A stretch of DNA of 26,500 nucleotides from a virus, in the IMG/VR virus record IMGVR_UViG_3300005731_000063, positions 1 to 26,500 of that record, one strand, 5' to 3'. How positions within the stretch are numbered: position 1 is the stretch's first letter; each line of letters begins with the position of its first letter. Shown here in pieces: positions 218-26,456 of this stretch. A model generated the notes under the pieces. That model saw nothing but the letters and a program-made list of their open reading frames with translations. It was not told where the DNA came from and did no database searches. The translations under genes were made by a program, and so were the position numbers.

Positions 218-312
218 GCCTAACAATGGCTAAAGTTAATTGCCTTGCAAGGTCTTGTTATAATTCAATGACTAGTGATTAACGGCTACTAAAATTAGCC
301 TAACCGTTAACC
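218..312 (+). other. diverged attC-like site at the left boundary of the phage
   Basis: R'' is GCCTAAC at 218-224, the same heptamer as in the right-hand attC at 26398. R' is best placed at 306-312 (GTTAACC), a partial match to GTTRRRY. Between them, GGCTAA (228-233) pairs with TTAGCC (295-300), and CCTTGCAAGG (243-252) is a perfect palindrome. A second local hairpin pairs 279-283 with 306-310 and 284-288 with 296-300. GCCTAAC recurs at 298-304. The 95-bp length is within the attC range. Spacers and pairing are less regular than in the two flanking sites, so this is a weaker call. The helicase stop codon (307-309) falls within R'. Confidence 0.42.
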
Positions 313-1233
313 CCATGCAGTAGCATAATTTTCCACCATTCCAGTTTTGCTAAAGTAGCACTTTTTTTTGAAATCAAAAAATAAATCTGCGTGTCCTCTC
401 TCCCCTAATTCCCTTGGCTTCACTTTATCCAAGCTGACGCCTACATAATTATCTTCAAACGGATAACCGTCTTTATCCAGTAGCCTGTCTCCGTTCATGT
501 TAGGCGGTGGCGGTCTCCACACGCTCATCATGTTAAGCCCCTTCCTGCTCCATGCCTGACCACCCGCGATTCTATTCATCATGGTTGGGGGCTGGTATCT
601 TATCCCGTCCTTAACCACGTCATCTTGGTTTTGTGGGTGTGTGATAATGCAGTTTAGTCGGTTGTTCTTCCTTGCGTCTTCTCTAAACTCGCCTAGTACG
701 TTCTCTAAATACAAATCCCTTGCGCCTCCGTACTTGGTTATGTCATGATAGAACTCATTCCACGGGTCGCAAGTTGCGCTCCAAACTGGTTCTTTAAAGT
801 GTTCACTAGCTGCGTTTGCCGCTTCCAAAAACTCTTCAGGTGTGTTGGAGTTTGTGCCCACCAAAAAGTGAGAATGTATAAAGCCCTGAGCCGTTTTAAA
901 CCTTTCGGGGTCTATGTATCCAAATTTAAACCAACTACGGCAAAGCATTTCAGTAAGCTCCGCGTAAATATCACTAGGCTCTCCCGTTTCGGGGCTTTGT
1001 ATAAAATGCTTCCACCCGTGCAAGTGTGATAACTGAACTAGGATAAAATGCCAAAAGGTAGACTTTCCTGAGTAGGGAGGTCCATAAACGTAGAATGTGG
1101 ACTTTCGTTTGAAGGATATGTACTCATCAAACCCTTTCAGCCCTATAGTGTCCCCTCGTTGCCTTCCATGCTGGAAAAGGTGGTTGTATGCTTGGTTTGT
1201 TTCTTGATCTAGTAAAAGTGGGTGAAGTTTCAT
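307..1233 (-). CDS. RecA-fold replicative helicase, Twinkle/DnaB-like ATPase
   Basis: This 308-residue protein probably unwinds DNA at the phage replication fork. The Walker A motif is GPPYSGKST (residues 51-59). The Walker B-like strand SATCDPWNEF (152-161) and the following IITHPQ (196-201) resemble the DPWNE and histidine-strand motifs of Twinkle and DnaB-type helicases. An acidic SPETGEP segment (80-86) sits where the catalytic glutamate is expected. There is no N-terminal primase or zinc domain, so any primase must come from elsewhere. Its start overlaps the methyltransferase stop by 4 nt (ATGA), showing translational coupling. The TAA stop lies exactly at the predicted attC crossover. 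It could also be described as a generic phage AAA/RecA ATPase; the helicase role is inferred from motifs. Confidence 0.72.
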   Translation of the reverse strand: MKLHPLLLDQETNQAYNHLFQHGRQRGDTIGLKGFDEYISFKRKSTFYVYGPPYSGKSTFWHFILVQLSHLHGWKHFIQSPETGEPSDIYAELTEMLCRSWFKFGYIDPERFKTAQGFIHSHFLVGTNSNTPEEFLEAANAASEHFKEPVWSATCDPWNEFYHDITKYGGARDLYLENVLGEFREDARKNNRLNCIITHPQNQDDVVKDGIRYQPPTMMNRIAGGQAWSRKGLNMMSVWRPPPPNMNGDRLLDKDGYPFEDNYVGVSLDKVKPRELGERGHADLFFDFKKKCYFSKTGMVENYATAWG

Positions 1234-1913
1234 ATTTCTTTGTTTTCATCAAATATAGAAATTTGTTTTGTATTGTTTTGTCTGTGTATTTCCATAGCCG
1301 TTTCAAGTATTGTTCTGCCAGCTTCGTAATCAACCAGGTTTCGAGCGATTTTATCTACTCTTTGATTTCCTTTGTACTTCCTAAAATCGTAATCGTGAAA
1401 TTCGCTCAAATCACCAACTTTTGAGTGTATGAAGTTACTCGCCTTCCTTCCGTTTAAATCACTTGGTAAATTAAAGTTAGTCCAATAAAGGTGTCTATCT
1501 CTTTTCTTTGCAGGTATTAAAGGCTCGTAAAAAGGTATTACATTTTCAACACAGTATTTACCTTTAAAAAAGTGTTCTAATAACAATATTTCTTGGTACA
1601 ACTTCATATCGGGATAAGTTGCTTTAGATTTTCGCTCACCTTCGCCTGTGTTTGTTTTTCTCATACTGCTATGAGTTGGGCAAGGTGGAGAAGTCCAAAT
1701 AAAATCAAAGTCCTGGTAGTGATCTAGCAAATATTGGTGTGCGTCAGCGATAACAACCTTGTCATTTGGGAAACGTTCTTGATATAACCTTGCTAACTCA
1801 TGATCTAACTCAACCGCAGTCACCTCTATTCTTTCAGAGACCTCGTTCCATTTGTAACGATTACCTCCAAGGCAAGCGTATAAGTTCAGTATTCTGTATT
1901 TCTTTGTTTTCAT
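1230..1913 (-). CDS. DNA (cytosine-5) methyltransferase, short orphan type
   Basis: The protein would transfer a methyl group from S-adenosylmethionine to cytosine C5 in DNA. Visible motifs are a motif I-like LYACLGGN (residues 11-18), an acidic residue after the second strand (AVELDHE, 33-39), the catalytic PPC (76-78), motif VI ENV (123-125), and an RDR motif VIII (138-140). At 227 residues it is shorter than most Dcm-type enzymes, leaving little room for a target-recognition domain. The C-terminal motif X region is unusual (NLVDYEAG in place of the common GN-type motif). No restriction enzyme is encoded nearby, so it is probably an orphan that protects phage DNA or tunes replication. It overlaps the helicase gene by 4 nt. 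Confidence 0.8.
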   Translation of the reverse strand: MKTKKYRILNLYACLGGNRYKWNEVSERIEVTAVELDHELARLYQERFPNDKVVIADAHQYLLDHYQDFDFIWTSPPCPTHSSMRKTNTGEGERKSKATYPDMKLYQEILLLEHFFKGKYCVENVIPFYEPLIPAKKRDRHLYWTNFNLPSDLNGRKASNFIHSKVGDLSEFHDYDFRKYKGNQRVDKIARNLVDYEAGRTILETAMEIHRQNNTKQISIFDENKEI

Positions 1914-1947
1914 TTTAAAGCGTTTTAAGGCTATTGTTTTTTCAAAC

Positions 1948-2544
1948 CTATAACCTACCCCATGAGGCTGGTTGCTCTTTTGTTTTTACCCCGTTTCTGT
2001 CCTTCTCAGACCTTGCCCACTCGTTAGCCTTGTACGTCCAGTTTGTTATCTTGGCTCCGTTCACCATCCAGCCCTTTGCAGCGTAGTGTTCAAAAAACCT
2101 AGTTGCCACGTCTTCGGTCTGCCATTGGTATTTGTGTTTGTCTTTCAACCCTTGGAAGTAACCTTGGCACGTCAAAGCGTCCTTTGGGTTTCTAATTCCT
2201 TCACTATTCCAAACATCGTGGGGTGTTTTTTCTCTATTATCCTTATCTACATCCTTATCCTTATCCTTATTAGCTTCAATATTGCTTTCGTTTTGCTTCG
2301 GTTTTGCTTCGGTTTTGCTTCTTTTTTTCTTGCTTCCGTTCTCAAAACGCTTATTGTTTGCCTCTAGATTTGGGCGTATTAAGCACCAAATTGCCTTACT
2401 GATTCCGTCTAAGTTCGGTTCTTTGAAGTTTAGGCTGAATTCTGCAATAGCTTCGTAGATAATTAAACGATCTTGATCGGGCAAATTCGTGATAGCTTCG
2501 TGAAAGCTACGGTAGAAAATGAAAGAGTCTCTTTTTTTGTCCAT
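1948..2544 (-). CDS. DUF6291-like phage replication or primosome accessory protein
   Basis: The N-terminal 75 residues fit the DUF6291 pattern: a RDSFIFYRSFHEAI start, LPDQDRL, an EAIAEFSL helix, and LIRPNLEANNKRFENG. Such proteins are common in Bacteroidota phages next to helicase and DnaA-like genes and are thought to organise replication, though no activity is established. A lysine- and aspartate-rich linker follows (about 72-105, with DKDKDVDKDN). The C-terminal part (about 108-198) is rich in aromatic residues (WQTEDVATRFFEHY, TNWTYKANEWA) and may bind DNA or the helicase. The linker is encoded by an 11-bp tandem repeat and a hexamer-like repeat (2240-2321), which could mutate rapidly. 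Confidence 0.62.
   Translation of the reverse strand: MDKKRDSFIFYRSFHEAITNLPDQDRLIIYEAIAEFSLNFKEPNLDGISKAIWCLIRPNLEANNKRFENGSKKKRSKTEAKPKQNESNIEANKDKDKDVDKDNREKTPHDVWNSEGIRNPKDALTCQGYFQGLKDKHKYQWQTEDVATRFFEHYAAKGWMVNGAKITNWTYKANEWARSEKDRNGVKTKEQPASWGRL
2240..2321. repeat. tandem repeats in the linker of the DUF6291-like gene
   Basis: On the plus strand GTTTTGCTTCG occurs at 2290-2300 and 2301-2311, with a 10-base third copy at 2312-2321. Nearby at 2240-2265 a CCTTAT-type hexamer repeats imperfectly. The first repeat is 11 bp, not a multiple of three, so gain or loss of one copy would shift the reading frame of the surrounding gene. Confidence 0.7.
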
Positions 2545-2570
2545 TGTCTTTTTTTTGCGAATGTAGGAAA

Positions 2571-2933
2571 TTAAATTAAGGACTTTTTTGCAAGCCCTTC
2601 CAGCACTCTCCTATGAAGATTGCTTACAGATTCATCGTATTTGCATAAGAAATCAAAAGACTTAGTGTAATAGGTTATTGTTGAGTGATCTACGTTCAAT
2701 TCTTTACCTATATTAACGAAGGTTGCGCTAGTGTATTTACGCAATACATTTGCCATTATCTTTCTAGCGTCCACAAGTGGTCTCTCTCTTACTTTTGAGT
2801 ATATTTCATCCTTAGTTATACCGTGTTCGAACTCGATCACATCATAGCAAATGTCTGCTATATTTCTAAACGTTGCTGCCGTGTGTTGAGGCGACAAAAC
2901 CCCTGGCGCTGCGAAATAATTTAACATATCCAC
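2571..2933 (-). CDS. DnaA domain IV-like DNA-binding replication protein
   Basis: Residues 28-118 resemble the C-terminal origin-binding domain of DnaA: ITKDEIYSKVRERPLVDARKI (basic loop and helix, about 39-59), then INIG/KEL-type helix and the recognition motif VDHSTITYY (81-89), equivalent to the DHSTV signature that contacts the DnaA box. There is no AAA+ ATPase domain, so it may bind phage origin sites without opening DNA itself, or may act as a regulator. At 120 residues it is essentially a stand-alone domain IV. It overlaps the preceding gene; the in-frame Met3 codon would make that overlap an ATGTTAA-type junction. Role in replication is inferred from the domain and from the neighbouring helicase and DUF6291 genes. 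Confidence 0.72.
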   Translation of the reverse strand: MDMLNYFAAPGVLSPQHTAATFRNIADICYDVIEFEHGITKDEIYSKVRERPLVDARKIMANVLRKYTSATFVNIGKELNVDHSTITYYTKSFDFLCKYDESVSNLHRRVLEGLAKKSLI

Positions 2934-3256
2934 CCCCCTATCTTTAGAATGTGTTCAAAAGGCAAACATCTGTCCTCGCACTCTTTAAGGATGACGCTGC
3001 GAATATGTTCTTTAGTCACTTCCTTGCCGTCTTTAAAACGACGGTAGTACCTTTTTTTGTGGCCTTGCGGAGTTGTGATATACTGCATCTTACCGCTATT
3101 AACTGCCGTTGTACTAGCGTAGAAAGCATTAACACTGTCAATGGTGCTTTCAATCTTTTTTGCTAGTACCTTTTTAGGACTGTCTCTTTTCAATGTCATG
3201 TGTGCGCATGGCTCATAGCCAAACAAATTATACATTTCCGATTCTTCCTTTTTCAT
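2921..3256 (-). CDS. hypothetical basic protein of the replication unit
   Basis: This 111-residue protein is not recognised. A second possible start is Met8 (MYNLFGYEPC). It is basic, with a central KRYYRRFKDGKEV segment (about 68-80) and three cysteines (17, 93, 111), one of them the terminal residue. The gene is co-directional and overlaps both its neighbours by a few bases, so it belongs to the recombination and replication operon. A nucleic-acid role is plausible from the charge but not shown. Confidence 0.6.
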   Translation of the reverse strand: MKKEESEMYNLFGYEPCAHMTLKRDSPKKVLAKKIESTIDSVNAFYASTTAVNSGKMQYITTPQGHKKRYYRRFKDGKEVTKEHIRSVILKECEDRCLPFEHILKIGGWIC

Positions 3257-3362
3257 TTACCTTGTATTTTTTGTTAGTCTCCTTTCTTATCATTCTCGCC
3301 CATTCGTTGAATGTTGGACGGTTCTTTGGTGTTGCCGTTGTCAATATCCTTATAGCATCCAT
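3228..3362 (-). CDS. small ORF overlapping two neighbours in other frames
   Basis: A 44-codon frame starting at ATG 3362 gives a basic peptide with the protein-like segment PTFNEWARMIRKETNKKYKV (residues 16-35). It overlaps the zinc-binding ORF (3274-3438) by 89 bases and the next gene (2921-3256) by 29 bases, each in a different frame. Its amino-acid composition looks less random than the frame of the zinc ORF over the shared stretch. It could be a real overlapping gene, or the continuation of the zinc ORF after a frameshift. Confidence 0.42.
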   Translation of the reverse strand: MDAIRILTTATPKNRPTFNEWARMIRKETNKKYKVNEKGRIGNV

Positions 3363-3438
3363 TGTGGTATGTTTTAGCCCCTCTAGTAGTGGCGTAGGTT
3401 CTTATTGTATCTCCGCAGTAGTCGCAAGTTCTTCGCAT
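3274..3438 (-). CDS. small zinc-binding (CxxC ... HxxxC) protein
   Basis: The 54-residue product begins MRRTCDYCGD and carries CDYC (Cys5, Cys8) followed by TYHNGCY (His25, Cys28), an arrangement able to bind one zinc ion. A TIRTYATTRGAKTY stretch links the pairs, a look shared by many small phage zinc-ribbon peptides. The remainder is polar and probably disordered. The gene lies inside the recombination and replication operon, overlaps the 49-aa membrane ORF upstream in another frame, and shares its last third with the 44-aa ORF. Function is unknown. Confidence 0.55.
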   Translation of the reverse strand: MRRTCDYCGDTIRTYATTRGAKTYHNGCYKDIDNGNTKEPSNIQRMGENDKKGD

Positions 3439-3551
3439 TGGTATGTTTTTACTTGTTCCTTCAATCTGTTCACTTCCTCCGTTAGCTCTCCGACTTTAAC
3501 GGAGACTAACAGAAGAATGATAAACAGTACTAATACGTCCATCTTTTTCAT
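3402..3551 (-). CDS. small single-pass membrane protein with coiled coil
   Basis: This 49-residue ORF has a hydrophobic stretch (VLVLFIILLLVSV, residues 6-18) followed by a short charged coiled-coil-like helix (ELTEEVNRLKEQVK, 22-35). It starts with an ATGA overlap with the stop of the Rad52-like gene at 3548, a typical coupled junction. Without it there would be a gap here. It is not a recognised family; the shape suggests a small inner-membrane protein. Confidence 0.5.
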   Translation of the reverse strand: MKKMDVLVLFIILLLVSVKVGELTEEVNRLKEQVKTYQCEELATTAEIQ

Positions 3552-4117
3552 CGTCCAGAATTATCAATTTTAATACGATCTCTCCAACTACTGCCGTACT
3601 TCTTCTCTGCTCTGATCTTTACTGGTATAGTCTTCTCAAACTCTTCACCGTCACCATATTCAATATACCAGTTCCATTCATTAGGCTTCAAAAATCCCGT
3701 TGCTTTTGGCTTTCCGTTGTTGTCGTTGTACTCTTTGTCTTCAAGTATTACTTTAAGGCTTGGGAAGTCATAAAGACTACGACCAATTCCCCACATAAAG
3801 CCAGCTCTTTTGAAAGCGTCTGAATATTCACCCTTCACACCTTCAAACTCAGATGGCGTTCCATTACTCCACTTCCAAACCCAGTGTTTTTCTGTCTCTT
3901 GGAAGATACCAATACCACATTGCAAAACCCCGTTAGAGTCTCGTTTATACTCACATTGCCAGTTCATTGAACCTACTGTTGAGTCAAGAATATTCATATC
4001 AACCCTAGCATCCTTGTAAGCCAGTAGGAAGGCGTAAACGTTGTCACCCCATTTCTGTAGTCTAGAGACTTTAAAGTCTATCTCATAACTCTTTAGCGGT
4101 CTATCTAGTTTGTTCAT
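3548..4117 (-). CDS. Rad52-like (Sak-type) single-strand annealing protein
   Basis: The protein is likely a phage recombinase that anneals complementary single strands. The order YKDARVDMNILDSTVGSMNW (residues 34-53), a beta region ending QCGIGIF (67-72), then KGEYSDAFKRAGFMWGIGRS (95-114) and YDFP matches the Rad52/Sak fold: a dimer-forming helix and a conserved KGE-SDA-KRA-GIG core. A matching exonuclease is not evident, and the SSB is far away at 25 kb. At 189 residues its length is typical of short Rad52-type proteins. It overlaps the upstream gene by 4 nt (4114-4117). The family assignment is from motif recognition only. Confidence 0.72.
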   Translation of the reverse strand: MNKLDRPLKSYEIDFKVSRLQKWGDNVYAFLLAYKDARVDMNILDSTVGSMNWQCEYKRDSNGVLQCGIGIFQETEKHWVWKWSNGTPSEFEGVKGEYSDAFKRAGFMWGIGRSLYDFPSLKVILEDKEYNDNNGKPKATGFLKPNEWNWYIEYGDGEEFEKTIPVKIRAEKKYGSSWRDRIKIDNSGR

Positions 4118-4341
4118 TTGTATAATTTTAAATTGTTTCCTTTTACCATTGACACAAACATATTCAAAGAAGTAATGTAGTTCATGTCTGCATCATCCGC
4201 TTTTGCCATCTCTACAAAGCCAGCTAACCCGTGAATGGGCTTGCAAGTTATGTAGTTGGTGTTTCCTATTTGTGTTAACTCTAGCTTGTGGTTAGGCATT
4301 GCATCCCGCAAGGCTCTGACCGATTTTAAAAATGTGTTCAT
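4114..4341 (-). CDS. hypothetical 75-aa protein
   Basis: A short soluble protein of unknown family, predicted to be mostly helical at its start (MNTFLKSVRALRDAMP) and end (NMFVSMVKGNNLKLYK). It overlaps the Rad52-like gene by 4 nt, so the two are probably translated together. It has a single cysteine and no recognisable motif. Phage recombination operons often carry small partner proteins in this position, but no such role can be read here. Confidence 0.55.
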   Translation of the reverse strand: MNTFLKSVRALRDAMPNHKLELTQIGNTNYITCKPIHGLAGFVEMAKADDADMNYITSLNMFVSMVKGNNLKLYK

Positions 4342-4352
4342 AGTTTTGTTTT

Positions 4353-4559
4353 TTATTTATGTTTACAATACTCATTAACAATCTCTAAAAGATCTGGACG
4401 ACCATCAAAAAAAGCTCCAAGAAGACACAAATGCTCTGTGTTTGGCATATGTGCATGAATACCCTTGTCATCAAGTCTTAATACAATCCATAATTCAGAC
4501 TTGCTTAATCTACGAGCTATATCTAGCTGCAATGCTCTAGTGTTGTTTTTGTTTCTCAT
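4353..4559 (-). CDS. hypothetical 68-aa protein, first gene of the recombination and replication unit
   Basis: This is the first gene after the terminator at 4680-4708 and the promoter near 4629-4660, with a leader of about 60 bases. The protein has a basic start (RNKNNTRALQLDIARRLSK), then a WIVLRLDDKGIHAHM strand-like stretch and a helical end (LLEIVNEYCKHK). No family is recognised. As the promoter-proximal gene it would be among the earliest expressed of this unit. Confidence 0.55.
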   Translation of the reverse strand: MRNKNNTRALQLDIARRLSKSELWIVLRLDDKGIHAHMPNTEHLCLLGAFFDGRPDLLEIVNEYCKHK

Positions 4560-4628
4560 ACTGTTGTTTGTTTACGTGTTTTGTTTTTAAAGGTTACGCG
4601 TTAATGACTTCATTGTTTTTGAACACCC

Positions 4629-4660
4629 CAAAGATACAACCCAATAACGAACAAACCAAA
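4629..4660 (-). promoter_or_regulatory. Bacteroidota-type promoter for the recombination and replication unit
   Basis: On the minus strand a TTTG box (4660-4657) is followed by 20 bases and then TATCTTTG (4636-4629), matching the Bacteroidota -33 TTTG and -7 TAnnTTTG consensus. A second TAnnTTTG-like box (TAAATTTG, 4664-4657) overlaps the -33 element. The site lies between the late-operon terminator and the gene starting at 4559. Confidence 0.6.
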
Positions 4661-4679
4661 TTTATTTTTCATGACGCAC

Positions 4680-4708
4680 AAAAAAGGGCTAACCCGAAGG
4701 CTAACCCA
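4680..4708 (-). terminator. strong intrinsic terminator with UUCG loop
   Basis: On the minus strand GGGTTAGCC (4708-4700) and GGTTAGCCC (4695-4687) form a 9-bp stem with two G-U pairs around a TTCG tetraloop, followed by seven T (4686-4680). It lies 36 bases beyond the holin stop and would end the late transcript. Confidence 0.85.
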
Positions 4709-4743
4709 ATTCTGAAAAACAAAAAACTAAAACAAAAGAAATA

Positions 4744-5259
4744 TTATCCTTTTCGGAAGATGTCGCGGCTCTTCTCGAATCCGCGTGAGCCAAAGTACGC
4801 AATTATTACGGTAATAAGCAAGCCGTCAAGTAACTTAATATAAGAATCCTTAACATCAAAAGCCATAGGGTCTACACTATCCAACACAACCACTACCGAA
4901 AACATAAGGAGTAAATACACTAAAGTCAAGGGTCGCACGTTTTTAGATAGCCAAGAGTCTGTACTACTATCTGCCTCCCAACGCTTTGTGATCTCAGCAA
5001 CCTCAATAGTATGGTACTCGTATTCCATCCTAAAAAGTTCCTCCATGCTCTCGAACTCTTCAAGTAAATCCGCAGCATCTTGGTTGTCTGGTTCTTTATC
5101 TAAAACACCACCTAAAGCCGTGCCTACCTTCGCTACAACCGTACCCCAGGGGCCTCCTACTGCCATGCCAACGGACTCAATAACATCGGGCGCAGCCTTG
5201 CCAGCTTTCTTAACCCATTTACCGAATTTAGTGTCCTTGAATTTCTTACGATCTTTCAT
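4744..5259 (-). CDS. phage holin, 3TM/DUF3154-like superfamily
   Basis: This is probably the holin, which forms inner-membrane holes at the end of the lytic cycle so that lysin reaches peptidoglycan. A glycine- and alanine-rich amphipathic region lies at about 30-52. A charged helix (62-98) ends in ITKRWEADSSTDSWLSKNVR, characteristic of this holin group. Two clear membrane segments follow, at about 110-127 and 143-156, and then a GSRGFEKS tail. The start codon overlaps the lysin stop by one base, and an intrinsic terminator follows, so it is the last gene of the late operon. The 171-residue length fits the family. Confidence 0.78.
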   Translation of the reverse strand: MKDRKKFKDTKFGKWVKKAGKAAPDVIESVGMAVGGPWGTVVAKVGTALGGVLDKEPDNQDAADLLEEFESMEELFRMEYEYHTIEVAEITKRWEADSSTDSWLSKNVRPLTLVYLLLMFSVVVVLDSVDPMAFDVKDSYIKLLDGLLITVIIAYFGSRGFEKSRDIFRKG

Positions 5260-5687
5260 TACCAGTCTAATTTACGAACAGATAAAAGTCTGTCTATTGG
5301 GTATTTCGCAATGCAAACTTTATTCCCTTGGTTGCCTCCCAACACATAAATATCCTTCCCGTCTTCACCAATAAAGAAACCTACATGGCCCTTGGCGCTT
5401 TCTTTGGATTGCCTCCAAAACACAACTAAGTCACCTTCATCAGCCTTTCGCAAAGAAATATCCTTACCCAAGTCTAAAAAGCTACGTGCATTTAGCTTAC
5501 CAGTACCATCTACATGAGCCTCTTTCAAAACCCAATTAACAAACGCAGCGCACCACGCAGTGTCGTCGGTTTTAACCCACTTATGACCGATCTCATGGAA
5601 GTAGGATAGTATCCTATCTTCGTCGTTATCCTCACGAATCCCTATCTGACTCGTCGCAATCAGTAGTATTAGGTCGTTCAATCCCAT
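5259..5687 (-). CDS. endolysin, TIGR02594/CHAP-NlpC-like peptidoglycan amidase
   Basis: The 142-residue protein resembles TIGR02594 lysins, papain-like cysteine hydrolases that cut peptidoglycan. The probable nucleophile is Cys46 in DDTAWCAAFVNW. The catalytic histidine is His101 in AKGHVGFFIGE. GDLVVFWR (85-92) is the strand before the histidine. There is no signal peptide, so export depends on the holin encoded immediately downstream with a one-base overlap. No cell-wall-binding domain is attached. The bond cleaved cannot be read from sequence. Confidence 0.85.
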   Translation of the reverse strand: MGLNDLILLIATSQIGIREDNDEDRILSYFHEIGHKWVKTDDTAWCAAFVNWVLKEAHVDGTGKLNARSFLDLGKDISLRKADEGDLVVFWRQSKESAKGHVGFFIGEDGKDIYVLGGNQGNKVCIAKYPIDRLLSVRKLDW

Positions 5688-5757
5688 TTAGCCAATTTAT
5701 TAAACCTTCGTCTAGATCATGAAGGTGTAAGTAGTTCTCTAAGTAAAAGTCTTTCAT
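5632..5757 (-). CDS. small ORF upstream of and overlapping the lysin
   Basis: A 41-codon frame begins at ATG 5757 (MKDFYLENYLHLHDLDEGLI) and fills the gap between the spanin-like gene and the lysin, overlapping the lysin start by 56 bases. The first 25 residues look like an amphipathic helix; the end is acidic and polar. It may be a real small lysis-region gene or a leader that couples translation to the lysin. No family is recognised. Confidence 0.42.
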   Translation of the reverse strand: MKDFYLENYLHLHDLDEGLINWLNGIERPNTTDCDESDRDS

Positions 5758-5774
5758 GTAGCGAATATAAGATT

Positions 5775-6101
5775 TTACGCCCGTTCCTCCAAACGCTCAA
5801 TTCTACGCTCGTTGCTTTCGTTCTTTATTCTAACCTCGCTAAAAGCCAGTTTAATATCAGTTAAAACCTCTAACGTCTTATCCATTTTGTCAGACAACTC
5901 ATGATATTGCCCATCATGGACGCGCTCAATCTTGTCTAGCTTTTCCTCACTATGGTTCAATCTTTGCTCCATAAGGCTATGAGCCTCCCTTTGATCTGCT
6001 ATGGCTTTACGCATCCACACAATACCCAACACGATACTAACTATCAATGCGGCTATTACCGTGCCGAGAATCCCTAATATGAAGTTGCTTAACTCGTTCA
6101 T
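5775..6101 (-). CDS. N-terminal membrane anchor plus coiled coil, spanin-like lysis protein
   Basis: The 108-residue protein has one hydrophobic segment at about residues 7-29 and a long charged heptad-rich helix from 31 to 107, with repeated RLNHSEEKLDKIERV and NERRIERLEERA patterns. An inner-membrane anchor with a long coiled coil next to lysin and holin fits an inner-membrane spanin, or an XhlA-like holin helper. There is no lipoprotein partner beside it; the only lipoprotein is at 22.6 kb. The start at 6101 is supported by an AAGGAGAGGG Shine-Dalgarno-like sequence directly upstream, unusually strong for this genome. The lysis role is inferred from architecture and position. Confidence 0.6.
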   Translation of the reverse strand: MNELSNFILGILGTVIAALIVSIVLGIVWMRKAIADQREAHSLMEQRLNHSEEKLDKIERVHDGQYHELSDKMDKTLEVLTDIKLAFSEVRIKNESNERRIERLEERA

Positions 6102-8720: not shown

Positions 8721-8730
8721 AAATTTACGC

Positions 8731-8764
8731 AAAAAGGCGGTAAGGGAACTTACCCAAACCGCCC
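8731..8764 (-). terminator. intrinsic terminator after the tail tube gene
   Basis: On the minus strand GGCGGT and ACCGCC (8763-8758 with 8741-8736) can pair, with an alternative inner hairpin GGTAAG-TTCC-CTTACC, followed by five T (8735-8731). It sits between the tail-tube-like gene and the next gene, so it probably lowers read-through into portal and lysis genes. Confidence 0.65.
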
Positions 8765-18364: not shown

Positions 18365-18371
18365 CCTTGGA

Positions 18372-18650
18372 CTAATCTACTAGTGACAAGCCCGTAAACT
18401 CTGTGTAGTTCTCACGCATTAGTCTGGCGATATTAACTAAAAAGAACTGTGATATATCGGCCTTAAACTGGTCATCCATATCTAACTCGTAAACCCTGCC
18501 AATAGTATTCAAGTCATCCCAAGCCTCTACACCTAGCGTGACCGTTTCCATTACAAAATCAATCTCAATATTTATAGGCTTGCCCTTTGGATCTTCTAAG
18601 TTCACGTCTTGAACCTTAACCACTCCGCTTTTTTGGTAAACTATATCCAT
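18372..18650 (-). CDS. hypothetical 92-aa tail-region protein
   Basis: An acidic protein with a beta-rich first half (GVVKVQDVNLEDPKGKPINI) and a helical end (FLVNIARLMRENYTEF). It has no cysteine, membrane segment or known motif. It lies one base from the DUF1566 fusion gene and 7 bases from the tail completion gene, so it is a member of the tail operon. It may be a head-tail joining or terminator component; the sequence does not say. Confidence 0.52.
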   Translation of the reverse strand: MDIVYQKSGVVKVQDVNLEDPKGKPINIEIDFVMETVTLGVEAWDDLNTIGRVYELDMDDQFKADISQFFLVNIARLMRENYTEFTGLSLVD

Positions 18651-18651
18651 C

Positions 18652-20821: not shown

Positions 20822-21092
20822 CTGTTATGTCTCTTCTAAATGCTTCAACTCTATAAGGCAACTCTAGTGCTGATTCAATCCCGTAGTTAGTCACTATGGC
20901 ATCGTGTAGGAACTCTATAGCGTCATCTCTAAAGGCTATCTCTGGCTTAATCTCTGACTCTTCGCAAGCTAATAAAATAGCGTCTCTCATTATAGCGCAA
21001 GACTCATAGTCCTCTGCCCTTTCAAACTCTTTGAGTATGACAACGGCGGGGTACAATCCAAACCCTATTATAGACTCTACTAGATCATCCAT
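20811..21092 (-). CDS. hypothetical acidic helical protein after terminase
   Basis: A 93-residue, strongly acidic and mainly helical protein (EFERAEDYESCAIMRDAILL, about 22-41; EIAFRDDAIEFLHDAIVTNY). It shares one base with the large terminase stop and overlaps the tail-chaperone-like gene by 11 nt, so all three are co-translated. Small acidic proteins in this position occur in many Bacteroidota phages, but no function is known to me. Confidence 0.6.
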   Translation of the reverse strand: MDDLVESIIGFGLYPAVVILKEFERAEDYESCAIMRDAILLACEESEIKPEIAFRDDAIEFLHDAIVTNYGIESALELPYRVEAFRRDITDED

Positions 21093-22312
21093 TACCCTAG
21101 TATTACTTTACCTTTGTTCAATCTGTCAAACGCATAACGCATAGCGTCAATGCAGTGGTTATACATATCTAAAGGTACGGAATCCTTACCGCTTACCCAT
21201 GTATAATTATTCAATTCTTCGCCCATCTTTTGACCCAATTCGTCATTGTGAACGATTATCTTATAGTCTTGTATCTTCTTTATCCCAGAAGTAACAGAAC
21301 CCTTACCCTTTGAGCATGGTGTTATGTTGCAATACTTCTTTAGCTCGCTTATAAGTCTAGGCTCTGCGTTGTCTCCTACAATCATTGTTCGCCCCGCAAC
21401 CTTTCTATTAACCTCACCTATCCGCGATGTGCTTGCTCCCATCTCGTAAAAGTCAACCTTAACCCTGATCTCCATTAGTTTGTTATCAACCTTCACCCTA
21501 ACTAGTGTTGTTGGGTCTGCTTTGAATCCGTAGTCCTGACCGAATATAATACTACCTGAGTCGTCAAACTCTCCATACTCCCAATTAGGGAAAATAACAC
21601 CCTCGGCTTTGTCTAGCCAACCACCAAGAATAACGTGCTTGTACTTGATAGGGTTACGCTGCTTCATGTTCTCAACCTGCGCAAGAAAGGATTCCGATAG
21701 GTTCTCTTTGTTGTCTTCGTAGGTTGTATGGATATAGCACACGTCACCCTTGACCCCGTTGAAGCCTTCAACTACTCCCATGTCCTGAAAGAATCGCTTG
21801 TATATCCAATGTGCCTTTGTTGCGGGGTTTAGGATAAGCACCACCCTGTTTTGAATACCTTTCTGGCGTATGGAAAAATCAATCTTATCAAACTGGCTCT
21901 CGTCGGTCATCTCTTCGGACTCATCCAGTACCCAAGTGGTAACGCCTTGCAAACTCTTTAGCTTTGCCGTCTGGTCTTTGCTCTGCTGCTTTATCCCTCT
22001 GAATAGAACCCGTGAACCGCTGCGCTTGTTTGTAACCTCGTTGGCTTCTATGTGGAAGTCATCATTGGCCTTCAGTATATCTATCTTCTCCGTGAACTCT
22101 GGCAACGTTGAATCCTTGCTACTGTTCATCGTGTACCTAGTGTCTAGGATGGTATGTCCTTTCTCATAGGTTAGTAGTACCTCCCAAGTCTTTTCGCTGA
22201 ATGACTTAGACGAACCACGCCCACCAGTTATAATGAAGTAACGGGTAGGCGCAGTGAATAGGGGTCTGTATTTGGGGTGTAGGTCAATCACTCTTCCTTG
22301 AATCGTATCCAA
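21092..22312 (-). CDS. terL: terminase large subunit
   Basis: The motor packages DNA into proheads using an N-terminal ATPase and cuts concatemers with a C-terminal RNase H-like nuclease. Walker A is GGRGSSKS (residues 30-37), Walker B WVLDESEE (127-134) with the catalytic glutamate, and the coupling region LNPATKAHW (161-169). The nuclease has Asp260 in FGQDYGFKADPT, Asp314 in VGDNAEP and Asp389 in HCIDAMRYA, the expected metal-binding aspartates. Its 406 residues match the family length. It overlaps the small subunit by 25 nt. The sequence type alone does not tell whether packaging is cos or headful. Confidence 0.95.
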   Translation of the reverse strand: MDTIQGRVIDLHPKYRPLFTAPTRYFIITGGRGSSKSFSEKTWEVLLTYEKGHTILDTRYTMNSSKDSTLPEFTEKIDILKANDDFHIEANEVTNKRSGSRVLFRGIKQQSKDQTAKLKSLQGVTTWVLDESEEMTDESQFDKIDFSIRQKGIQNRVVLILNPATKAHWIYKRFFQDMGVVEGFNGVKGDVCYIHTTYEDNKENLSESFLAQVENMKQRNPIKYKHVILGGWLDKAEGVIFPNWEYGEFDDSGSIIFGQDYGFKADPTTLVRVKVDNKLMEIRVKVDFYEMGASTSRIGEVNRKVAGRTMIVGDNAEPRLISELKKYCNITPCSKGKGSVTSGIKKIQDYKIIVHNDELGQKMGEELNNYTWVSGKDSVPLDMYNHCIDAMRYAFDRLNKGKVILG

Positions 22313-22587
22313 CTACCAATAGGCCTATCCTCTTCATCCACCTTGATAGTATTCTCAACCTTCTTAGGTAGAATGTAGGGAAGGAACTTAGCTAATATGT
22401 TCAGGTAAGTAGCTGCGTCCTCTTTTGCCAGCTCGTTAAATTTCTTCTCCATAACTTCGGCTTGATCTTCCATAGCGGAAACCATTAGCTCCTTGGCTGC
22501 CGTGGTGGTCTTGTTCTCAACCCCTTTGGGTCTGCCAGCCTTCTCGCATCCCTTAGTGAATCTACCGTTACTGTCTCGCTCATCCAT
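22288..22587 (-). CDS. terminase small subunit-like DNA-recognition protein
   Basis: The 99-residue protein starts with RDSNGRFTKGCEKAGRPKGV, the DUF5681-like pattern seen in small terminases of Bacteroidota phages. It continues as a helical region (TTTAAKELMVSAMEDQAEVM, then a second helix to about 75). The end carries a DEEDRPIGSWIRFKEE tail that may contact the large subunit. It lies immediately upstream of terL with a 25-nt overlap, which supports the call. It is short for the family. Confidence 0.7.
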   Translation of the reverse strand: MDERDSNGRFTKGCEKAGRPKGVENKTTTAAKELMVSAMEDQAEVMEKKFNELAKEDAATYLNILAKFLPYILPKKVENTIKVDEEDRPIGSWIRFKEE

Positions 22588-22608: not shown

Positions 22609-22869
22609 CTACCACATTTCACCGCTACAATACTCATCCCCTTGGTTGGTAAAGAAGTAAGTTTGAAAACCTACATCGAATAGATCACGGTTCTTAGTAC
22701 ATTCGTTCTCTACCTCTATAGCGTAGTAAACCGCTGCTTCGTCTTCATGGAAACCTACTACTGTTCCGCATACTGAGTAACATGGCTCTACGTTGTTATC
22801 TGGCTTTACTTCCTCCTTAGTGCATGAGGCGAGTAGGGTCGTTAGTAGTATTATTGTTGTTAGTCTCAT
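22609..22869 (-). CDS. phage-encoded lipoprotein
   Basis: The first 15 residues are a lipoprotein signal peptide (RLTTIILLTTLLAS) with lipobox LLAS-Cys16. The mature part has 71 residues and four more cysteines (30, 34, 57, 83), enough for two disulfides, which suits an exported protein. Phage lipoproteins often block the receptor against superinfection (T5 Llp and related exclusion proteins) or act as outer-membrane spanins. Distance from the lysis genes and absence of a proline-rich linker favour the first reading. It overlaps the previous gene by 4 nt. Confidence 0.68.
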   Translation of the reverse strand: MRLTTIILLTTLLASCTKEEVKPDNNVEPCYSVCGTVVGFHEDEAAVYYAIEVENECTKNRDLFDVGFQTYFFTNQGDEYCSGEMW

Positions 22870-23132
22870 TCCTCAGCGTTTGAAATTACATGAATCTCTA
22901 CGTTTACTTTTTTGCCAACGTATCTACTCAATTGGTCTATGTGCTCCCTTGTTATCTTTTCAGGTATATCTATAGAGCCTCCGCAAAATGAAGCATGGTC
23001 ATCGGTTAAAGCCATCCTTTCACTTGGTACGTAAATTAATTGACATAACCCAGAGCTATCGCCATTATGCTCAAACCAATCGCCCAATTTATAGGTAACT
23101 TCTTTCTCTTCTCTCTTGTCTATTACTTTCAT
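22866..23132 (-). CDS. hypothetical 88-aa protein upstream of the lipoprotein
   Basis: A short, mildly acidic, beta-rich protein (EVTYKLGDWFEHNGDSSGLC, then LIYVPSERMALTD) with two cysteines. The last strand region (GKKVNVEIHVISN) ends with a coupled overlap of 4 nt with the lipoprotein gene, so the two may work together. No signal peptide or membrane segment is present. It follows the tRNA-like segment with a leader of about 20 AT-rich bases. No family is recognised. Confidence 0.55.
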   Translation of the reverse strand: MKVIDKREEKEVTYKLGDWFEHNGDSSGLCQLIYVPSERMALTDDHASFCGGSIDIPEKITREHIDQLSRYVGKKVNVEIHVISNAEE

Positions 23133-23155
23133 CTTATTTTGTTTTTAATTATTTA

Positions 23156-23229
23156 GAACCGTGTGCAGATTCGAACTGCTTACCCCTTTAGCACGGTTGC
23201 CACTCTACACCAATGACCAAAGCACGTTG
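23156..23229 (-). tRNA. tRNA-like sequence, degenerate
   Basis: Read on the minus strand, this 74-base stretch has a D-loop-like ATTGGTGTAGAG (23214-23203), GTGCTAA in the anticodon-loop position (possible anticodon GCT), and a good T arm (GCAG, loop TTCGAAT, CTGC). It ends CACGGTTC like an acceptor strand. The expected 5' acceptor partner is AACCGTG; the bases actually there (CAACGTG) pair only partly, and the D and anticodon stems are poor. AACCGTG does occur inside, at 23198-23192. It overlaps the end of the 72-aa gene by about 25 bases. A decayed tRNA or a captured tRNA fragment is more likely than a working tRNA. Confidence 0.35.
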
Positions 23230-23423
23230 TCGCTTGACTTGTACTCAAATCCCTCCGCGTCTGTCTTACTCATTCTCACTGATGAACCGTTAGCCGCTTT
23301 AAACGCTAGTCCCTTAGTGCTTTTTACTTCTACCACCTTGGTTCTGTTTCTCTCACCCTTGATAGTGTAGAAGATTGTCTGTCCTTCTTGTAGCTCTGCA
23401 AATGTTGTACTTGTTCCTTTCAT
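23205..23423 (-). CDS. hypothetical 72-aa protein
   Basis: A small basic, strand-rich protein (LQEGQTIFYTIKGERNRTKV, residues 11-30; KGLAFKAANGSSVRMSK) with a likely SH3-like or KOW-like barrel length, though this is only an impression. It ends within the tRNA-like segment. It belongs to the run of small genes between the sigma-like gene and the terminase. Function is unknown. Confidence 0.55.
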   Translation of the reverse strand: MKGTSTTFAELQEGQTIFYTIKGERNRTKVVEVKSTKGLAFKAANGSSVRMSKTDAEGFEYKSSDNVLWSLV

Positions 23424-23429
23424 GCTATT

Positions 23430-23594
23430 CTATTTTAACCAGTAATCAATTTCTTCTAAAGTGTATTCCTTTCCCTTTTCGGTAAGGCTTCGCACCTTAT
23501 CCTCGTTAAACATTCCTAAGTTAGGTGTTTCTCCTACAACGAATATAAAAGTATCGCTCTTAGGTCGTTCCTCTTTTATGTCTGTCTTAATCAT
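23430..23594 (-). CDS. small acidic ORF, 54 aa
   Basis: The frame starts at ATG 23594, overlapping the stop of the Cys-rich gene by 8 bases, and ends 6 bases before the next gene. The product (MIKTDIKEERPKSD, then TFIFVVGETPNLGMF and a helical KGKEYTLEEIDYWLK end) has the balance of a small folded protein. Without it the stretch would be an unusual gap in a tightly packed operon. It has no known family. Confidence 0.5.
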   Translation of the reverse strand: MIKTDIKEERPKSDTFIFVVGETPNLGMFNEDKVRSLTEKGKEYTLEEIDYWLK

Positions 23595-24015
23595 TTCGCT
23601 TCTCGTAGTTGTTTACAAACTCCTTTAGTTCTTTTAGAAAGCAGGGCTTACAGTTTTCGTCTGTCTTATTTGTACCTCCCACCATTGATAGAACTTTATA
23701 AAAATCCTTGCGCTCTTCTGCGGTTATCCTCGACTTATCTTTTAAGTTGGTAACCACTCGCTCCATCTCAGATAGTTCATACTTAGTCAAGTCTCTGCCC
23801 CATTTATTGATTGGACACCTAGCAACCTTTAGGCGTGCTTTAACACTCATAACACACCCGCACAACTCAGCTTCACCCCTTCCGAATTTAACCTTGTCGG
23901 GGTTAGGTGTTAGCCTTGTTAAGATAGTGCCGCAACTTCTTGTCGCCCTCTTGTAGTTGGGGCAATCGTGGCACTTATCCAGCCTCTTCTTGTATGTGTC
24001 TTTATTTACTAGCAT
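23587..24015 (-). CDS. Cys-rich zinc-binding protein
   Basis: The 142-residue protein has cysteines at 15, 18, 28, 52, 54 and 67 (CHDCPN, RSCGT, LCGCVM, ARCPIN) that could hold zinc, followed by a long helical part (81-110). A second CxxC is at 122 and 125 (NCKPCF). Similar Cys-rich proteins are frequent in flavobacterial phages and have no assigned function. It overlaps the sigma-like gene by 7 nt. The zinc sites and basic charge suggest nucleic-acid or transcription-machinery binding. Confidence 0.6.
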   Translation of the reverse strand: MLVNKDTYKKRLDKCHDCPNYKRATRSCGTILTRLTPNPDKVKFGRGEAELCGCVMSVKARLKVARCPINKWGRDLTKYELSEMERVVTNLKDKSRITAEERKDFYKVLSMVGGTNKTDENCKPCFLKELKEFVNNYEKRND

Positions 24016-24392
24016 TGTTTTATCTTGGCTTTTACTGATCTAATCACGCTCCAAATGTATCTACACTCCACCCCGCATATCTTCGCTATCTCTTTAGGCT
24101 TGTAGCCCTCCATTAACGATCTACTTACCTCTGCTTCGAACGCGTCTAAATTATAGTTGTTTAGGTCTAGTGGCTCACTTGGCTGCTTGCTTGGATGGAA
24201 GATTAATTCCTCTTCCTTCTTCCTTCTTATCTCGTCTATCCATCTGTTATGAATGGCTAGGTAAATATAAGAATCCAAAACCTCAACACCCTTGCGCTGC
24301 ATCTTTATATAAACGTCGTGAACATAATCTTTATACAAGGGGTCGCCTTTAGTTATCTTGAAGGCTCTACTATACCACTCTTCAACATTCAT
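24009..24392 (-). CDS. small sigma-70-like transcription factor
   Basis: Residues 18-58 resemble sigma region 2 (DYVHDVYIKMQ, then YIYLAIHNRWIDEIRRKKE), and residues 88-124 a region 4 helix-turn-helix (YKPKEIAKICGVECRYIWSV, then basic KAKIK). The order and 127-residue length recall reduced ECF-type sigma factors carried by Bacteroidota phages. It could direct RNA polymerase to phage late promoters; the adjacent zinc protein may be a cofactor. Region 2 is short, so a sigma-derived regulator is the alternative. Confidence 0.6.
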   Translation of the reverse strand: MNVEEWYSRAFKITKGDPLYKDYVHDVYIKMQRKGVEVLDSYIYLAIHNRWIDEIRRKKEEELIFHPSKQPSEPLDLNNYNLDAFEAEVSRSLMEGYKPKEIAKICGVECRYIWSVIRSVKAKIKQC

Positions 24393-24393
24393 T

Positions 24394-24912
24394 TCATCTC
24401 TCTACGAATGTAAATGTAAAAATATTTCCTGACATTAACACTACATCGATGTCGAAACTTCTAGGACTGTCTTTAATGAATACATCGCTTTCGTCGTATG
24501 GCGTTGTGTGATACCATAAAAAACTAACATCTTCACCGTTGAACTGAATAGGTGCTAAAGGGTTAAACCAGTTGTTACCCTCGCCAAACTCTCCAAACAA
24601 CTCAAACAAATCCAAAGGCAATAGGCTTGGGTTTGGGTCGGGCGTTGTTCCGTACCCAGCTATCAAGGCCATCATATCAGGAGTGTTCAATACACCGTCA
24701 CTATTCAAGTCCCATGCGGTTTTGGCTTTTGTTCCAAACAGTGATAAGAATTTCATCAACGCCTGGGAGTTTGGAAGGTATCTTATAGGGGCTTGGTAAA
24801 CTCCGTCAATCTTCGCGTTCATCTCTATACAGTAGTACCTATGAAGCTGAACCCAATCACTTAGCACTACATCTTCCTTGAACAAGGACTTAAACCAGTT
24901 AACTATTCTCAT
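24394..24912 (-). CDS. unknown protein with dockerin-like calcium loop
   Basis: This 172-residue protein contains AWDLNSDGVLNTPDMMALIA (residues 66-85), an EF-hand-like loop with D68, N70, D72 and D79 in calcium-binding spacing, followed by GYG. It matches a single dockerin or GEVED-adjacent calcium repeat. A PDPNPSLLPL linker separates it from a C-terminal beta region. There is no signal peptide. It overlaps the SSB gene by 4 nt, so it is made with an early protein. Its role is not known. Confidence 0.52.
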   Translation of the reverse strand: MRIVNWFKSLFKEDVVLSDWVQLHRYYCIEMNAKIDGVYQAPIRYLPNSQALMKFLSLFGTKAKTAWDLNSDGVLNTPDMMALIAGYGTTPDPNPSLLPLDLFELFGEFGEGNNWFNPLAPIQFNGEDVSFLWYHTTPYDESDVFIKDSPRSFDIDVVLMSGNIFTFTFVER

Positions 24913-25226
24913 TGCTTTGGTGCGTTTATGTCATCAACTACTACCTCAGTGAAGTACTTAGTTTGACCGTTTCCATCCTCGTACTTCCTATGTTTTAGCT
25001 TGCCCTCTATCGTGACGAACACGCCCTTTTTGAACACCTTCTCAGCAAAGTTAGCCTTTCGGTTGCTCACTTTAAGGTTGTGCCAGTCCGTTGCGTCCTC
25101 GTAGTTTTCACCTACTTTCTTTTGGTAGCTTGTAGCTATTGTCGCGGTAATGGTTTTACCTCCATCTTCAAAGGTCTTAACCTCGCAGTCTTGACCGATG
25201 TATCCGCTTAGTATTACTCTGTTCAT
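24909..25226 (-). CDS. ssb: single-stranded DNA-binding protein
   Basis: The OB-fold of an SSB is clear: NRVILSGYIGQDCEVKTFED (residues 2-21), TATIATSYQKK, then DWHNLKVSNRKANFAEKVFK (47-66) and VTIEGKLKHRKYEDGNGQTK. It coats single strands in replication and recombination. At 105 residues it lacks the acidic DDDIPF-type tip through which bacterial SSBs recruit partners, ending instead in DDINAPKQ. It may work with the Rad52-like annealing protein encoded in the other operon. Confidence 0.92.
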   Translation of the reverse strand: MNRVILSGYIGQDCEVKTFEDGGKTITATIATSYQKKVGENYEDATDWHNLKVSNRKANFAEKVFKKGVFVTIEGKLKHRKYEDGNGQTKYFTEVVVDDINAPKQ

Positions 25227-25227
25227 A

Positions 25228-25377
25228 TTATTGAGATCTGTAGTCTATAATCATATCTTTAACTTCCTCGCTCTTTATCCAATTATGGAACACCTCACCC
25301 TCATCCCCTCTTCGAACATCATACGCGTATTGCCTACCTGAGTACCACGCCCTTTTTAACATCTCTTCTAATTCCAT
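25228..25377 (-). CDS. small ORF directly upstream of ssb
   Basis: A 49-codon frame from ATG 25377 (MELEEMLKRAWYSGRQYAYD) to TAA 25228 lies one base before the SSB start. The product is acidic and helical, ending VKDMIIDYRSQ. Codon use and spacing match its neighbours and it fills an otherwise empty 168-bp gap. No function can be given. Confidence 0.55.
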   Translation of the reverse strand: MELEEMLKRAWYSGRQYAYDVRRGDEGEVFHNWIKSEEVKDMIIDYRSQ

Positions 25378-25394
25378 GCTTTATTGCTTTTGTT

Positions 25395-25820
25395 TTATAA
25401 GTATTGCTTTTGTTTCGATATCTCGTTATCGTATTCTATTTTATTTTGCTTGTACTCCATTGGAGTTGGTAAGTAGCAGTTATGAGTCTGTGAGAAGTTC
25501 CTAACGTGTTCAATGAATAGGTTGATCTCTGGGTTATTGAAGGTTGCTATACTTCTGTACGTCTGAAAACCTCTAACACTCTTGATGATCCATCCATAAG
25601 AAACCATATTCCCCGCACTATACTTCATCACTTGCTTAACCTCGTCCAGCGTCAGGCCAAAGTGAATCGCTGCCATACTCAATATAGCGTGAAGATACGC
25701 ATTTTGACTAACACTTTTGCTCTTTTTCTTCTCTGTTATTTCCACAATCGCCTCGCGGTCAATCAGTTGTTGCAATCGCTTAATAGCTTCTATTGCTTGT
25801 GTTTTAGTGTTGTATTTCAT
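25395..25820 (-). CDS. NinB-like recombination accessory protein
   Basis: The 141-residue protein has a lysine-rich first third and then SVSQNAYLHAILSMAAIHFG (57-76) followed by LTLDEVKQVMK, close to the QNxYLH and LDEVK pattern of NinB-like proteins. Further on, SYGWIIKSVRGFQTY and LFIEHVRNFSQTHNCYLPTP complete a pattern seen in Bacteroidota phages. NinB of lambda binds single-stranded DNA and stimulates recombination. Its nearness to ssb fits. It overlaps the HTH gene by 4 nt. Confidence 0.58.
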   Translation of the reverse strand: MKYNTKTQAIEAIKRLQQLIDREAIVEITEKKKSKSVSQNAYLHAILSMAAIHFGLTLDEVKQVMKYSAGNMVSYGWIIKSVRGFQTYRSIATFNNPEINLFIEHVRNFSQTHNCYLPTPMEYKQNKIEYDNEISKQKQYL

Positions 25821-26002
25821 TTCTTCCGTTTTACTATTACTTCATAACCTACCGCCTCCGCGTACTTAAAAAGCGTACTCATTGCTGAGTCTCTACCCTT
25901 CTCGAATCCATCAACACTTAGGTTGTGTGCTATGTGAGTTTTTTTTACCCCTTGTTCTTTTCGGGCTTGCGTCAGTTCTTTTACTATCTGTTCTTTTTCC
26001 AT
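25817..26002 (-). CDS. small HTH transcriptional regulator (XRE-like)
   Basis: From Met at 26002 the product is 61 residues: EQIVKELTQARKEQGVKKTH leads into IAHNLSVDGFEKGRDSAMST and LFKYAEAVGYEVIV, the standard XRE helix-turn-helix order with the FEKG turn. A longer frame from 26086 adds 28 residues that are not family-like, although it would overlap the upstream stop. It may control early genes or a lysogenic state. No divergent repressor/Cro arrangement is present. Confidence 0.6.
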   Translation of the reverse strand: MEKEQIVKELTQARKEQGVKKTHIAHNLSVDGFEKGRDSAMSTLFKYAEAVGYEVIVKRKK

Positions 26003-26075
26003 ATTGATTTTTTTAAATAACGTTGTAGCCAGTACTACTTTTGTTACTTTTTCTAACGATGGTTTATTATTTCCG

Positions 26076-26378
26076 TTACCCACCATTAAGGATATTGCTT
26101 ACAATAAACTTCAATGCAGGTTTCTTCCATTTGTTTTGCTTTCTTATAAGTAGCTTATTAGCTTTAGGGAAAAAGTCAATTACCCCATATTTAGAATCAA
26201 ACGTATAGCTTCCATTATATCTTTTGGTTACTTTTGTTTGTTCTTGTAGCTTTTTAAGCCAAGTTTCCTCAAACTTTTCTTTTCGTTCTGCTCTAAGTAC
26301 TTTGGTATATTTCCCTAAAGCTGCCAAGTCATTATCTGTTTGCTCGGCTTCTATTCTAAGTCTTTTTGATTCTTTCAT
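26076..26378 (-). CDS. hypothetical basic protein, first gene of the phage
   Basis: The 100-residue protein begins with a charged helix (KESKRLRIEAEQTDNDLAAL) and continues with GVIDFFPKANKLLIRKQNKW (65-84), a motif repeatedly met in small early proteins of Bacteroidota phages, after a TKRYNGSYTFDSK strand. No activity is known to me. It is the first phage gene, with its start only 20 bases from the attC at 26398, so its promoter must lie within or beyond the attC. Confidence 0.6.
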   Translation of the reverse strand: MKESKRLRIEAEQTDNDLAALGKYTKVLRAERKEKFEETWLKKLQEQTKVTKRYNGSYTFDSKYGVIDFFPKANKLLIRKQNKWKKPALKFIVSNILNGG

Positions 26379-26397
26379 ACTATTAAATTTAAACGTT

Positions 26398-26456
26398 GCC
26401 TAACATTCCATGAGTCGTAATTCCCTGCGGTCACTACGCTCATTTCAGCGTTAGCG
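26398..26456 (+). other. attC-like integron recombination site at the right boundary
   Basis: R'' is GCCTAAC (26398-26404), spacer ATTCC, L'' ATGAG-T-CGTA (26410-26419) with T26415 extrahelical, and L' TACGCTCAT (26435-26443), pairing perfectly as 5 bp plus 4 bp. The spacer TTCAGC (26444-26449) and R' GTTAGCG (26450-26456) follow; the last two bases of R' depart from GTTRRRY. The order R''-5 nt-L'' with an extra base-L'-6 nt-R' is the arrangement of the aadA-type attC. The hairpin core TCCCTGCGGTC (26422-26432) also occurs in the left copy. The predicted crossover is 26450/26451. Confidence 0.68.

Follow-up and report, generated by a model that had tools for sequence, protein, structure and literature searches.

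The viral record IMGVR_UViG_3300005731_000063 of IMG/VR, classed as linear and devoid of host flank, was analyzed at its full length of 26,500 bp (hereafter the window). A tailed phage fills this window except for a small unit at the left end, and its genes lie between sites resembling attC, the recombination site of integron cassettes. We assign a probability of about 0.8 to the reading that this is an ordinary flavobacterial tailed phage with a short integron-cassette array, and that the contig, cut inside this array, mimics a giant cassette. The phage is probably virulent. In its relatives, sites of this kind resemble integron attC sites in their behavior, and sibling phages exchange cassettes at the GTT core.

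In the proposed arrangement, the window would represent most or all of the genome of a distant relative of the Nonlabens phages P12024L and P12024S (P12024L/S). Flanked by the ATPase gene (307-1233) and the gene at 26076-26378, the array would lie in the early region and hold a minimum of three attC-type sites, a complete cassette with a 46-aa open reading frame (ORF), and the end of another. The genome may be circular or permuted and the contig opened inside the repeat-rich array; as a consequence of such an opening, the phage would resemble one giant cassette. The cassettes would be small single-ORF units with the attC bottom strand as coding strand, possibly exchanged at the G^TT core, with the IntI/Xer-type recombinase provided in trans by the host or a co-infecting phage. 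In this way, accessory genes, for instance those for DNA methyltransferases, could come and go among siblings.

attC-type sites and the small cassette in the window

1..54, plus strand: third attC-type site, truncated within R'' by the contig end, 79% identical to 26403-26454
49..306, plus strand: small cassette in the canonical attC frame, from G^TTAGGC at 48/49 to G^TT at 306/307, containing the left site and the antisense 46-aa ORF
65..205, minus strand: 46-aa cassette ORF, a small hydrophobic protein with leader GTTAGGCACTTTTAAAATTATG and trailer TAATTTTTATTATGCCTAAC, without Pfam match
216..314, plus strand: left attC-type site (218-312 in the original prediction), R'' GTGCCTAAC, crossover G306^T307, R' GTTAACC
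26398..26456, plus strand: right attC-type site, R'' GCCTAAC at 26398-26404, R' GTTAGCG at 26450-26456, crossover 26450/26451
26451..26500, minus strand: 3' end of another frame read from the sequence (...EQDAIEDLVRQENER, then stop), stop codon in the attC core, gene running past the contig end

The right and third sites display the attC architecture R''-L''-L'-R' with 5/6-nt spacers and one extrahelical base. At the right site, R'' and the spacer ATTCC are followed by L'' ATGAGtCGTAAT with the extrahelical base, L' ACTACGCTCAT, the spacer TTCAGC, and R'. A scan for R and L boxes gave this site a score of 14, with 0.03 expected per shuffled window, bearing out the attC-like site originally predicted here. 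The third site, missed in that prediction, comprises L'' ATAACgCGCTAC with an extrahelical G, L' GCTGCGGTTAT, the spacer TTCAGC, and R' GTTAGGC (48-54); it scored 15 on the minus strand after the missing R' bases had been supplied and differs from the right site by compensating stem changes (ATGAGtCGTA / ATAACgCGCT). In both sites the extrahelical base is found in L'' of the plus strand, so that the attC polarity is plus and the phage genes as well as the 46-aa ORF run antisense to attC. The coding strand is therefore the bottom strand, which is the strand that integrases use.

The left site is degenerate, and a clear extrahelical base is missing. It was nevertheless the best match in the window (E=0.019) to a covariance model trained on 18 attC-type sites of other phages, and across about 80 bp it shows 81-87% identity to homologous sites in other phage contigs (L036, L044, L048, L051), in agreement with its original assignment. 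The stem of the model contained 18 cells changed on both sides in comparison to 6.2 in shuffles (0 of 500 shuffles reached this value), which is supporting rather than independent evidence, as the training sites had been picked for having a stem. An Rfam scan returned no meaningful match. Energy folding of single sites was not significant; thus, the structure rests on covariation, box architecture, and complementarity.

Together, the sites at 1-54 and 216-314 provide the at least two neighboring attC sites that define a cluster of attC sites lacking integrases (CALIN); 26398-26456 is near them only if the window ends join. A complete integron, i.e., intI and attI beside the array, was not found, and the window has no match to PF00589, the tyrosine recombinase family. 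Of intI and more attC sites, for both of which the original prediction had suggested looking, the window holds the additional site at 1-54 and no intI, which could sit in unsequenced DNA past the contig ends.

The predicted cassette-like unit to the left of the phage was recovered as the cassette at 49..306. It has the fixed ends common to 36 complete units in phage contigs, and the complementarity between R' and R'' of this cassette is 5/6. The leader is identical in the Cellulophaga phage phi18:3 and also occurs in about 20 other IMG/VR contigs. Beyond the right site, a gene had been thought to start; instead, a minus-strand frame ends there, for which no relative was found in the fetched loci.

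Cassette family and cassette exchange in related phages

A DNA search with the left end of the window led to the Cellulophaga phages phi17:1 and phi18:3, which match the left site and the cassette leader. The layout in phi18:3 is the same, with a stop codon in R'' followed by the site, GTTAGGCACTTTTAAAATTATG, a small hydrophobic ORF, and TAATTTTTATTGTGCCTAAC. Among the viral contigs, the leader pattern matched 21 stretches and the trailer pattern 53. The fixed-end family that includes the left site and the 46-aa cassette extends over about 60 phage contigs in addition to isolated Cellulophaga phages. Its 36 complete units measure 166-326 bp and carry mostly unrelated ORFs of roughly 43-94 aa between the fixed ends, with two further units read out of frame; Pfam searches with ten cassette ORFs gave almost no matches. 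None of 399 Flavobacteriaceae genomes contained the trailer, which represents the fixed 3' end. Sites and cassettes of this kind occur inside complete genomes of isolated phages (phi17:1, phi18:3, P12002L, and P12024L/S), with P12024L matching the covariance model at 35078-35208 (E=9e-4) and 33096-33150 (E=0.008).

Within 611 kb of phage loci, 200 sites scoring at least 10 were detected, compared with about 15 expected from shuffles of three of the sequences (2.4 per 100 kb). R' was complementary to R'' of the next site (at least 5/6 outer bases) in 47 of 95 neighboring pairs versus 6% at random (permutation p<5e-5), in a set partly picked by a pattern holding one R''. This complementarity, a classical integron signature because R' moves with the next cassette, was equally seen in L095, L060, L082, and others with many differing core sequences. 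An unbiased stem check restricted to loci picked by the leader revealed that 20 of 22 sites have a stem beating 95% of shuffles. The longest phage array found here, with more than 20 attC-type sites in 14.6 kb, belongs to the 93-kb phage contig IMGVR_UViG_3300025839_000011 (L082). As a side observation, short attC-type sites with differing stems in many phages have the hairpin loop CGTTTTAATG in common (e.g., L052 1410-1465 and L048 430-480), which suggests one ancestral short site.

Comparison of related phages provided evidence of the exchange. The loci L064 and L085 have in common a block of 359 identical base pairs that begins and ends at the predicted cassette borders, with unrelated flanks; the pairs L067/L068 and L035/L051 resemble this case, but inexactly. 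Between phi18:3 and phi19:3, identity begins exactly at the CTAAC of the array end, and the cassette content is wholly different (14.4-16.65 kb and 15.4-16.4 kb, respectively; L053, L128) with conserved flanks, the regions being about 95% identical. P12024L and P12024S, two near-identical lytic phages of one host strain, are 96.6-99.4% identical on both sides of one differing core (loci L015, L127). Here, P12024L has a 38-bp unit, GTTGTGGTG...CACCACAAC (33.38-33.52 kb); in P12024S (32.56-33.56 kb), its counterpart is an insert of 889 bp comprising a second site and a gene for a DNA methyltransferase, between GTTGTACAT and GTGTACAAC. The borders of this difference are GTTG/CAAC cores, with GTTG instead of GTTA. 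Sibling phages thus differ by gain or loss of small cassettes and not by whole phages.

These exchange borders, falling at the GTT core in three comparisons, make it highly improbable that the hairpins are attC-like RNA elements or terminators located between phage genes rather than recombination sites. Such elements would fit the G-U pairs, which favor folding of the coding strand, and the loop common to many short sites, but not the own-cassette complementarity and the extrahelical bases. Furthermore, of two attC sites tested from phage P12002L, one was recombined by the integron integrase IntI1 (Qi et al. 2023, PMC9892861).

The phage genome and its position between attC-type sites

307..1233, minus strand: ATPase/helicase-like phage protein, 308 aa (phrog_5482, E=2e-21), stop codon inside the R' core of the left site
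1230..6101, minus strand: early and lysis genes, i.e., DNA methyltransferase, Erf-like annealing protein, holin, and endolysin (PHROGs; Pfam PF00145)
6144..22587, minus strand: packaging, head, and tail genes (PHROGs; relatives collinear in P12024L)
6673-8334, minus strand: portal (PHROGs)
9345-10334, minus strand: capsid-like (PHROGs)
10334-11452, minus strand: protease (PHROGs)
11460-13337, minus strand: tape measure (PHROGs)
21092-22312, minus strand: TerL (PHROGs)
22609..26378, minus strand: early genes, i.e., sigma-70-r2-like, SSB, NinB-like, small HTH-like, and unassigned ORFs (PHROGs, Pfam)

The region between the outer sites is phage DNA, as originally predicted, with the main genes on the minus strand. 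PHROGs and Pfam assigned TerL, portal, capsid-like, protease, tape measure, holin, endolysin, Erf, SSB, NinB-like, cytosine methyltransferase, and ATPase/helicase-like proteins. Likewise, the prediction that the phage encodes no recombinase held: neither a recombinase nor a transposase was found among the window proteins scanned. One 172-aa protein (24394-24912) contains a dockerin-like stretch, WDLNSDGVLNTPDMMALIAGYG, recognized by eye and without Pfam match.

By TerL, the closest isolated relatives are the Nonlabens phages P12024L/S (Inhavirus), with 51-52% identity. P12024L is collinear with the window for portal, capsid, protease, tape measure, and holin, which identifies the window as an Inhavirus-like tailed phage; shared features thus comprise head, tail, and lysis gene order as well as the presence of cassette sites. 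In contrast to the window, P12024L/S have other replication genes, and their cassette cluster is located between the tape measure and protease genes instead of beside the helicase. When the window ends are joined, the order methyltransferase, helicase/ATPase, early genes, sigma-like, TerS, TerL equals the circular order of P12024L; consequently, the contig opening falls within the early region, where we infer that the ends join through the array.

Homologues of the 308-aa ATPase/helicase-like protein have a C-terminus longer by about 20-30 aa, from which we considered the idea that the gene was cut short by cassette insertion. A leftover C-terminus was looked for beyond the right site and not found, nor was a close relative of this protein found in the viral contigs.

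According to the original prediction, the whole phage may be a giant cassette: recombination between attC sites, catalyzed by the host integrase, would have brought it into a chromosomal integron of the host and may release it again. The attC sites flank the phage with crossovers at 306/307 and 26450/26451, the phage has no integrase of its own, and some flavobacterial chromosomes (G015, G031) have attC-like arrays no more than tens of kb from an IntI-like recombinase. The Vibrio anguillarum prophage Va_90-11-286_p16, phage DNA bounded by two attC sites, is reported to excise at these sites (PMC9892861); unlike the window, which has neither integrase nor host flank, it is temperate, carries a complete integron with intIA, and has 68-bp perfect repeats at its ends. 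We nevertheless judge the giant cassette unlikely, and no specific support for it was found. Every relative examined represents small cassettes in phage genomes and not phages in arrays, and the adjoining cassette represents the phage-type family, the trailer of which was not found in the 399 Flavobacteriaceae genomes. R' and R'' of the phage unit (GTTAACCCC and TTGCCTAAC) match at 2/6 outer positions (random mean 2.16), although this test is weak, with 39 of 95 real pairs scoring 3 or less. The whole record being viral, there is no host integron or chromosomal flank to inspect. Just as doubtful is the variant in which attC is the only attachment site of the phage, moving it as a 26-kb cassette into and out of a host or phage-borne array via a host IntI-like recombinase. 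What stands of the original proposal are the attC-type sites, the integron-type exchange seen in relatives, and an enzyme acting in trans as a natural assumption; the phage itself as the cassette was not supported. A phage carrying cassettes is the simplest reading, as a giant cassette requires an adjoining host integron and none is seen.

An assembly chimera, in which a phage contig was joined at attC repeats to unrelated cassettes of another organism, leaving one or both ends false, is quite improbable. In its favor, the contig end falls within an attC-type site and the two end sites reach 79% identity, and repeats of this sort are known to cause misassembly; however, the left cassette is one of the phage-type family, the ATPase gene of the phage has its stop codon in the attC core, and the phage gene order is intact.

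Several observations weigh against a cassette-carrying phage as proposed here. The left site is weak alone, with 0.45 chance matches per window at its score and a stem p value of 0.07. The right and third sites drew no convincing match from the phage covariance model, and the right-site repeat, their common sequence type, was unmatched in exact searches of the viral_contigs and genome_contigs sets. The phage unit of 26.1 kb compares with 35.7 kb in P12024L/S, and primase and exonuclease were not recognized among the window proteins; part of the genome may be missing, and the original description of the phage as complete was not sustained.

Candidate recombinases, known systems, and implications

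L042 9879-10691, cassette coding strand: phage IntI/XerA-like recombinase without I2 region
L096 3477-4280, cassette coding strand: phage IntI/XerA-like recombinase without I2 region
L095 2549-3373, cassette coding strand: phage IntI/XerA-like recombinase without I2 region

Lacking a recombinase of its own and having relatives with integron-type exchange, this phage would most naturally be served by a recombinase acting in trans. A PF00589 match was found in only 5 of 50 cassette-bearing phage records, many of which are fragments. In the records of L042, L045, and L085, the cassette coding strand also encodes recombinases of 267-274 aa, no more than about 2 kb away from the array. The L042 enzyme reached 154 bits against the integron integrase model TIGR02249 (cut-off 265) and 183 bits against XerA, and it aligns to IntI4 except for residues 181-266, a stretch including the I2 part. 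The L042 and L085 enzymes are 69% identical, and each is 41-42% identical to a 376-aa chromosomal recombinase of genome G015. The latter is encoded in a region that also has seven site-like elements, all of one orientation and distributed over 22 kb (G015:C20 70596-95471; L125, L126), of which the two site pairs close enough for comparison show 6/6 complementarity. IntI-like recombinases of this kind, without I2, may act on the cassettes in trans. In G031:C1 (1171-1211 kb; L122-L124), attC-like sites of one orientation were observed no more than tens of kb from an IntI-like recombinase, which is apparently broken.

No integron integrase above the curated cut-off was found in 100 Flavobacteriaceae genomes. 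TIGR02249 seemed to occur in all 100, which was rejected because no match reached the cut-off and control genomes matched too; at most of the TIGR02249-matching loci, a nearby array was missing. The arm-type recombinase beside the array of phi18:3 and phi19:3 was also rejected as IntI-like, matching only XerD at 29 bits, and is probably the ordinary integrase of these phages.

CALINs in virulent phages were reported by Qi et al. 2023 (PMC9892861), so that this kind of array is already known. The closest likeness is to Polaribacter phage P12002L, with attC sites and cassettes without intI in a lytic phage and DNA methyltransferase cassettes; its sites fit our covariance model, four of them having belonged to the training set. 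In contrast to those CALINs, the arrays described here have a fixed leader/trailer family, ORFs antisense to attC, a distribution over about 60 viral contigs, and exchange between siblings; Cellulophaga phages are not named in the main text of that study. Sedentary chromosomal integrons (e.g., of Vibrio) share the small single-ORF arrays, the R''-L''-L'-R' order, own-cassette complementarity, and the G^TT crossover, but differ from the phage arrays in location, in the orientation of ORFs to attC, and in having a canonical IntI. Furthermore, the cores of the phage sites are often GTTANNN or GTTGNNN in comparison to their GTTRRRY. In respect to the open-licence literature, the standardized family of antisense cassettes, its wide distribution among Bacteroidota phages, the natural sibling exchange, and the IntI-like recombinases without I2 beside some arrays appear to be new.

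If this reading is true, many phages of Flavobacteria and related Bacteroidota would draw on a common pool of plug-in cassettes with standard ends, and small genes would be swapped by integron-type recombination instead of slow mosaic evolution. The swapped genes would include DNA methyltransferases, likely protective against restriction. The pair P12024L/P12024S provides a natural experiment for cassette gain, and the IntI-like recombinases without I2, found in a few of these phages and in flavobacterial chromosomes near attC-like arrays, represent candidate enzymes.

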